A stretch of 64,000 bases of DNA from Prochlorococcus sp. AG-355-I04 (GTDB taxonomy: Bacteria > Cyanobacteriota > Cyanobacteriia > PCC-6307 > Cyanobiaceae): positions 1-64,000 of the forward strand of contig QCDL01000005.1 in assembly GCA_003280915.1 (NCBI GenBank), written 5' to 3'. The notes under the pieces are model-generated. The model saw nothing but the letters and a program-made list of their open reading frames with translations. It searched no databases and was not told the origin of the DNA. The stretch's first letter is position 1. Each line of letters starts with the position of its first letter. The position numbers and the translations under genes were made by a program. This document shows, piece by piece, positions 50,086-52,268 of the stretch.

Positions 50086-51240
50086 TTAAAAATTATTTTT
50101 TGAAAAATTTTCTAATATTCTCTGATTTATTTTTGGAATATTTTCTTTAAATTTAAAAAACCCTCTTTTAGCAAATTTCCAAGCAAATAAATCTTCATCC
50201 CTCACAAGATTAAAAATTTTTTTATGGTGTAAATTTTTAAACTCAGTTATGAAATCATAATTTTCTCCTACTCCAGGATAAATAATGTCTATTTCGTTAG
50301 TATTTTTAAAAGTACTTTCCAATGAATAAGGATCAATCTGTTCAACATTATCAAATTGCTCTACAAATTCAGAGACCAAATCTTGTTTAAATTTCAAAAC
50401 AGATTCAGACAATTTAATTTGTCTTTGTTCATTTTTTAAAAGGATAATAAATACTTTTTTATAGCTTGGAAGTAAATTTTTAAGGGTTGCTAGGTGCAGA
50501 TCATTTTCAAACATAATCAGATAATCTGATTTAGGATCCATATCATTTTTATAAATCTCATCTTCAAATGGTATTTGATTAGATTCTTCAAGAAAAATTT
50601 GTTGATTACTTATTTTTTCTACATTAAATCTATTATTTGAAAACTTTCTGAGGTTTGATGATGAAAAAAGATATTGTTTTCCCTTCGTTTGCAATCCTCC
50701 GACCCATCTCCAGCTAAGAAGATTAGATGAAGCATCTCCATCAAAAAGATATTTAAAGAAAAACTTTGCTCCCAATTGCCATGGGAGGCCTAAATTAAAT
50801 ATCCAAGTACTCGCAAACCACATTCTTGTATGGTTATGCAAATAGTTGTACTGCTTTAATTCATGGACCCAAGAATTAAAAAAATCTAATTCTGTATTGC
50901 CATTAATTGCACTTTCATATAGCTCATAATCAAAATCGAAATTGTTTTCTGAAATAAAATTTCTCCAAACTTTGGGTCTATTTTCCATCCAACCTTTCCA
51001 GTAAACTCTCCAAAATATTTCTTCAACAAATTTAGTTGAATTTTTGATTTTGTACTTACTTTTAATATCATTGATCAGATCATATTCCGATAATATTCTA
51101 TGAGTAATGAAAGGCGATAATTTTGAAACTGAACTTTCGTTATTTGGCCCAAAATCAAAATTTCTTAATTTTGCATAATCATTGATTTTGTATTTCGCAA
51201 AATTTTCCCAGGTATTTTGAGCTTTTAATAAAAATGACAT
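50086..51240 (-). CDS. photolyase/cryptochrome-related protein: N-terminal FAD-binding domain followed by a C-terminal alpha/beta domain
   Basis: 384 aa; residues ~1-220 FAD-domain motifs (SKLSPFITHRILS, FVEEIFWRVYW, NYLHNHTRMWFASTWIF, LFDGDASSNLLSWRWVGG); residues ~240-384 antenna-domain-like (YLIMFENDLHLATLKNLLPSYKKVFIILL ... RDEDLFAWKFAKRGFFKFKENIPKI). Confidence 0.82.
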   Translation of the reverse strand: MSFLLKAQNTWENFAKYKINDYAKLRNFDFGPNNESSVSKLSPFITHRILSEYDLINDIKSKYKIKNSTKFVEEIFWRVYWKGWMENRPKVWRNFISENNFDFDYELYESAINGNTELDFFNSWVHELKQYNYLHNHTRMWFASTWIFNLGLPWQLGAKFFFKYLFDGDASSNLLSWRWVGGLQTKGKQYLFSSSNLRKFSNNRFNVEKISNQQIFLEESNQIPFEDEIYKNDMDPKSDYLIMFENDLHLATLKNLLPSYKKVFIILLKNEQRQIKLSESVLKFKQDLVSEFVEQFDNVEQIDPYSLESTFKNTNEIDIIYPGVGENYDFITEFKNLHHKKIFNLVRDEDLFAWKFAKRGFFKFKENIPKINQRILENFSKNNF

Positions 51241-51518: not shown

Positions 51519-52268
51519 ATGAATAATTTATTAGTGAGAGATGTTAAGTATCTAGATGAACAATACAGAATAGGTGAAGGCATAATTTCGGATGATGCAT
51601 TTAAGCAACTTGAGAAGCTCTTTATTCCTATTGATCCAAACCCTAACTACTTTAATCAAAAAAATAATAAACTTTTGCCAAAATTAGCTAAAGAAAACTA
51701 TAAAGAATTTTTGGAAAGTTTATTAACAAAAACAAGATTAAGCATTCAACCAAAAATTGATGGCTGTGCTATTGCAATTAGATATATAGATGGCAATTTT
51801 AATAAAGCTATTACAAAGAAAGGATTTGATGTCTCAAGCAAAATTAAACAAATTAAAAATGTCCCCGATTGTATTCCTATCAAACGAGATTTTCAAATTA
51901 GAGGTGAACTATACTCTACAAACCAAGTTGCCGGCATTTCCAAAAGAATTACAAGAAAATACCTCAATGATAAGAAAGGGATTGGAGAAAGTCTCCGCTT
52001 TTGCTGTTTCCAAATACTTAATGGAAGACTTAATCAATACGAAACCCTTAACTATCTTAAAAAATGTGGCTTCAGCACCCCTGAAAGTTACTTCACAAAT
52101 CATACAAGCGAAATCCAAATATATATAAAAAATTGGTTAGAGAAAAAAATATTTGCAAAATATCCAACTAATGGGATAGTTATAAAAATAAATAGTAGGA
52201 AATTACAGTTACTTAGAGAGAAAAGTTTATCTCAAAATAATGAATGGCAATATGCAATTGAAAAATAA
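51519..52268 (+). CDS. minimal NAD+-dependent DNA ligase-like protein (partial Ia + adenylation domain only)
   Basis: 249 aa; IQPKIDGCAIAIRYIDG (motif I KxDG), RGELYS (III), FCCFQI (IIIa), TNGIVIKINS (IV), WQYAIEK (V) then stop. Confidence 0.78.
   Translation: MNNLLVRDVKYLDEQYRIGEGIISDDAFKQLEKLFIPIDPNPNYFNQKNNKLLPKLAKENYKEFLESLLTKTRLSIQPKIDGCAIAIRYIDGNFNKAITKKGFDVSSKIKQIKNVPDCIPIKRDFQIRGELYSTNQVAGISKRITRKYLNDKKGIGESLRFCCFQILNGRLNQYETLNYLKKCGFSTPESYFTNHTSEIQIYIKNWLEKKIFAKYPTNGIVIKINSRKLQLLREKSLSQNNEWQYAIEK

Follow-up and report, generated by a model that had tools for sequence, protein, structure and literature searches.

The window analysed here is a stretch of 64,000 nucleotides from the genome of Prochlorococcus sp. 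AG-355-I04 (contig QCDL01000005.1). A 384-aa ORF runs on its minus strand from position 51240 to 50086 and contains all the peptides quoted in a preliminary description of this DNA. We refer to the gene as phr7, the assignment for which we argue below; its parts are listed in Table 1. Upstream of phr7 lies a divergently oriented ORF corresponding to the adenylation domain of a NAD-dependent DNA ligase, and downstream a DoxX gene. With these two neighbours, an antenna gene is absent nearby, in agreement with the earlier statement that no antenna ORF lies upstream. The ligase adenylation ORF stands alone and is much shorter than LigA.

Table 1. Features of phr7 and of its divergent neighbour (positions in the window).
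Feature	Position	Strand	Details and basis of assignment
phr7 (NewPHL-type photolyase), complete CDS	50086..51240	-	384 aa + stop, ATG start
N-terminal catalytic FAD domain, residues 1-210	50611..51240	-	PF03441 1.1e-13; alignment with class I, DASH and Phr4/6 proteins
Linker, residues 211-238	50527..50610	-	low pLDDT to residue 229; FAD homology stops before the linker
C-terminal Z-domain, residues 239-384	50089..50526	-	AlphaFold2, Foldseek, motif common with alphaproteobacterial homologs
Ligase adenylation domain, stand-alone ORF	51519..52268	+	249 aa, PF01653 5.6e-19

That the FAD domain comes first in this protein, as the preliminary description had proposed, was confirmed. Pfam FAD_binding_7 matched residues 71-193 (1.1e-13, above the curated cut-off), and in sequence searches against NCBIfam and the PDB, residues ~7-201 corresponded to canonical photolyase positions ~200-415. 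The protein therefore starts past the canonical antenna domain, inside the FAD domain. Tested as a canonical class I photolyase, the phr7 product lacks the N-terminal DNA_photolyase domain.

Upon aligning the FAD domain with canonical class I, DASH and FeS-type Phr4/6 proteins, conservation was found at L41/S42, E74, W77, R78, N136, M140, W154, D167, D169, N173, W177 and W179. L41/S42 belong to the phosphate-binding motif, and residues E74, W77, R78, N136, M140, D167, D169, N173, W177 and W179 occupy canonical FAD/CPD-contact positions; those that we take to be CPD contacts are assigned from class I enzymes. The canonical numbering of the FAD contacts is that of PMC9426592. Two FAD-contact positions are unlike those of class I enzymes, T240 being replaced by V38 and W280 by F71. 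W177 is the inner and W154 the middle tryptophan of the electron-transfer chain; the outer position is not a tryptophan, which leaves a dyad, and a 'mere Trp dyad' has been reported for the NewPHL protein of D. shibae (PMC8948257). The phr7 product has no CxxC cluster and is devoid of FeS cysteines, as is Phr7 (PMC9426592).

These features are best explained, with little doubt on our part, if the gene is Prochlorococcus phr7 and encodes a photolyase of the NewPHL class. Haney et al. 2022 (mBio, PMC9426592) described phr7 as encoding an "N-terminal FAD domain and C-terminal Z-domain"; all LLI strains of Prochlorococcus and most of the high-light (HL) ones carry it together with phr1, phr2 and phr3, out of eight photolyase-family members listed for picocyanobacteria. 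The same paper, following Emmerich et al. 2020 as cited there, assigned phr7 to the NewPHL class of ssDNA CPD photolyases, and considered it orthologous to Dinoroseobacter and Methylobacterium enzymes that repair CPDs in ssDNA. CPD repair in ssDNA and inverted topology are described for NewPHL/SPL (short photolyase-like) proteins (PMC13274461). The genome hosting the window encodes exactly four FAD_binding_7 proteins, the number given for HL strains (PMC9426592), and alignment and tree identify them as phr3 (L001), phr1 (L002), phr2 (L004) and phr7. A lone FAD-binding-domain gene of Prochlorococcus, PMM1360, has also been described, with diel expression like that of phrA (PMC3441193). The gene and its reversed domain order have already been published (2020-2022) as phr7/NewPHL, and the novelty assumed in the preliminary description does not hold; that the reversed topology bears on photolyase evolution was recognised in those same years.

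Outside the cyanobacteria, the nearest relatives found belong to alphaproteobacteria; they measure 388-410 aa and are annotated, where at all, as 'FAD-binding domain-containing protein'. The homologs of Ruegeria (410 aa) and Peteryoungia (406 aa) have both domains, and the phr7 product aligns end to end with the proteins of Ruegeria, Peteryoungia, Asticcacaulis and Novosphingobium. Our comparison with NewPHL was made through these relatives, in place of the D. shibae and M. mesophilicum sequences. In the FAD-domain tree, the proteins of Prochlorococcus and of alphaproteobacteria group together in a single clade with a support of 0.994. As to gene context, a DUF3429 gene adjoins the alphaproteobacterial NewPHL gene at four of the four loci considered, belonging to Asticcacaulis (L211, L216, L217) and Novosphingobium (L215); in Asticcacaulis, a NAD(P)/FAD-dependent oxidoreductase gene overlaps the NewPHL gene on its upstream side. 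The reversed photolyase of Prochlorococcus and of its sister genus is of this alphaproteobacterial type, and the relatives in Synechococcus and Cyanobium are of the FeS type, a distribution within the Cyanobiaceae which hints at gene replacement by horizontal transfer.

The FeS-type relatives, with reversed order as well, are Phr4 and Phr5, encoded by two genes, and the fused Phr6 (PMC9426592); they have been published for picocyanobacteria and Nostoc punctiforme. The phr7 product is not one of them, as it lacks both the four FeS cysteines and the C-terminal PF00875 match. Searching cyanobacteria with a Phr4/6-type protein, we found the FAD gene together with a ~140-aa antenna-like gene in 63 of the 64 genomes that carry the antenna gene. 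In 47 of these 63, the latter follows closely downstream in the same orientation; two abutting, unfused ORFs are found in L196, L197, L202, L203 and L206, among others. A Fisher p-value computed alongside combines two genome samples and was disregarded. In the remaining genomes (~16/63), the Phr5-like gene lies far from its Phr4-like partner or on another contig (e.g., L187/L188, L189/L190). That both genes are kept although apart suggests a two-protein complex there, and not frameshifting. Phr4/6-type proteins are also encoded on Deinococcus plasmids (L207, L208, L209), fused in two species (472 and 456 aa) and split in a third, with an overlap of 4 nt. That cyanobacteria at large and Deinococcus both have the Phr4/5 system, whether split or fused, could still be of use. 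The Phr5-type antenna-like domain matched PF00875 in 18 of 19 members (best E 2.7e-5), and its profile matched that of canonical antenna domains with P 6e-10; the score was 51.7, while shuffles reached 14.4 at most. By sequence, it is a genuine PF00875 relative.

The preliminary description considered the C-terminal half of the window protein to be antenna-like. This stands in part: a HUP-type fold is predicted and a weak chain of profile matches leads to antenna domains, but residues 235-384 gave no match to PF00875, the Pfam antenna family (DNA_photolyase), in the HMM search, and the literature names this part Z-domain. AlphaFold2 folded residues 227-384 into a five-stranded alpha/beta domain with fair confidence (pLDDT 74), but the full-length model was poor (pLDDT 51) and was, for that reason, not used for domain packing. 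In Foldseek searches with the Z-domain model, the antenna domain of PhrB was matched (best TM 0.53-0.55, probability 0.97-1.00), and a PPAT of HUP fold reached a TM of ~0.45; E-values were weak (0.003-0.1) and the top rank was taken by a non-photolyase HUP enzyme.

The Z-domain ends in the motif R..DL.AW.FA..GFFKFK..IP, of which R..D...W..A..GFF is common to the Prochlorococcus and alphaproteobacterial homologs. Compared as profiles, the C-terminal parts of both groups gave a score of 26.1, while 100 column shuffles reached 7.7 at most. The Prochlorococcus C-terminal profile showed no significant match to Phr5-like or canonical antenna profiles. The alphaproteobacterial Z-domain profile did match the Phr5 type, with scores of 28.8 untrimmed and 19.7 trimmed, and none of 150 shuffles exceeded 12.3. 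A mixed profile of Prochlorococcus and alphaproteobacteria scored 20.6 against Phr5 untrimmed but 2.0 trimmed; being alignment-dependent, it was discarded and only the alphaproteobacterial profile was used.

The predicted HUP-type fold and these successive profile matches, by way of the alphaproteobacterial Z-domains and Phr5, suggest that the Z-domain may be a degenerate relative of antenna domains. A distant common origin is plausible and does not imply chromophore binding. We regard as evenly balanced whether the Z-domain is a degenerate HUP-fold photolyase antenna, with Phr7 and the FeS-type Phr4/5/6 descending from one reversed-order, possibly two-subunit ancestor, or an unrelated C-terminal cap. 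The link between Z-domain and Phr5-type antenna drawn here could still be useful. A rival reading, which takes up the circular permutation suggested in the preliminary description, is that an ordinary photolyase was circularly permuted at the level of domains, its C-terminal half still being a light-harvesting antenna with bound chromophore. The recognisable PF00875 character of the C-terminal domain in Phr4+5/Phr6-type proteins and the resemblance of the predicted Z-domain fold to the PhrB antenna speak for it; the Prochlorococcus Z-domain, however, matches neither PF00875 nor, by direct profile comparison, antenna domains or Phr5, and the Foldseek E-values and ranking given above also argue against it. 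We consider this reading unlikely.

As a NewPHL-class photolyase, the phr7 product would work by analogy with its characterised relatives. Its N-terminal domain would bind FAD, and a cyclobutane pyrimidine dimer would be flipped into the active site. FAD would be photoreduced via the short tryptophan chain W177-W154, and an electron from excited FADH- would then split the dimer. The preferred substrate may be single-stranded DNA, the preference reported for the class. The Z-domain, in place of an N-terminal antenna, would most likely cap the FAD domain by packing onto it; Emmerich and colleagues are said to have found that the C-terminal domain shields the FAD site from solvent. The earlier view of a photolyase-family flavoprotein, probably acting in light-dependent repair, was correct. 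That the protein is instead a cryptochrome-like sensory flavoprotein with no role in repair is very unlikely: its fold is common to cryptochromes, but the CPD-contact residues E, W, N, M and W are all retained, and CPD repair is what the closest class with characterised members carries out (PMC9426592, PMC13274461).

We next consider conservation. Scanning 84,980 species genomes with the phr7 product, 80 loci were found. Most share 86-98% identity along all 384 residues and come from dozens of Prochlorococcus genomes assembled independently of each other; a few, in more distant genomes, are ~70% identical. Among 42 Prochlorococcus genomes of at least 90% completeness sampled from the genus, 37 have a full-length phr7 match when paralog-only matches are left out, and all 42 once paralogs are counted. 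Remoter Prochlorococcus copies (56% identity) and those of the sister genus (40-44%) keep the two-part layout. No relative was found in viral contigs, and the phage records searched gave only FAD-domain similarity to ordinary photolyases (22-26% identity). Against five relatives, dN/dS ranged from 0.08 to 0.13 in the FAD domain and from 0.10 to 0.31 in the Z-domain; both halves are thus under purifying selection. The intact ORF, selection on both halves and wide full-length presence indicate neither truncation nor assembly error, and the domain order surveyed across Prochlorococcus and alphaproteobacteria rules out the mis-assembly considered in the preliminary description. Nothing but the missing N-terminal domain would suggest a canonical photolyase that was cut short or mis-assembled, and this reading is refuted by the full-length architecture, which recurs in other phyla and through dozens of independent assemblies; separate canonical photolyases are also present in the host genome.

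Compared with known systems, the window protein has the FAD domain fold and active-site residues in common with the class I CPD photolyase of its own genome (L001), which, unlike it, has the antenna domain at the N-terminus and a full Trp triad. Some SPLs studied by Xu and colleagues reportedly bind an FeS cluster; the window protein, without FeS cysteines, is unlike those. Absence of an N-terminal alpha/beta domain is common to it and SPL, as the work of Xu et al. 2021 is presented in PMC9649867 and PMC9178010, and NewPHL and SPL have been treated as one group (PMC13274461). With Phr4+Phr5 and Phr6 of Synechococcus and Cyanobium (PMC9426592), it has the reversed order and a related FAD domain in common, whereas those systems have four FeS cysteines and a recognisable PF00875 C-terminal domain or Phr5, often in two genes. 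NewPHL, as Emmerich et al. 2020 is reported in PMC9426592, PMC13274461 and PMC8948257, coincides with it in the FAD domain coming first, the C-terminal Z-domain, the Trp dyad and the catalytic residues; on the same reports NewPHL is alphaproteobacterial, while the window protein is cyanobacterial and its activity is predicted. Phr7 of Prochlorococcus (PMC9426592) has the genus, domain order, lack of FeS cysteines and four-gene photolyase set in common with it, and the copy in MIT 9302 (L074), the strain used for Phr7 in that study, is 86% identical over the full length. No difference from Phr7 was found, and the window gene is another copy of it.
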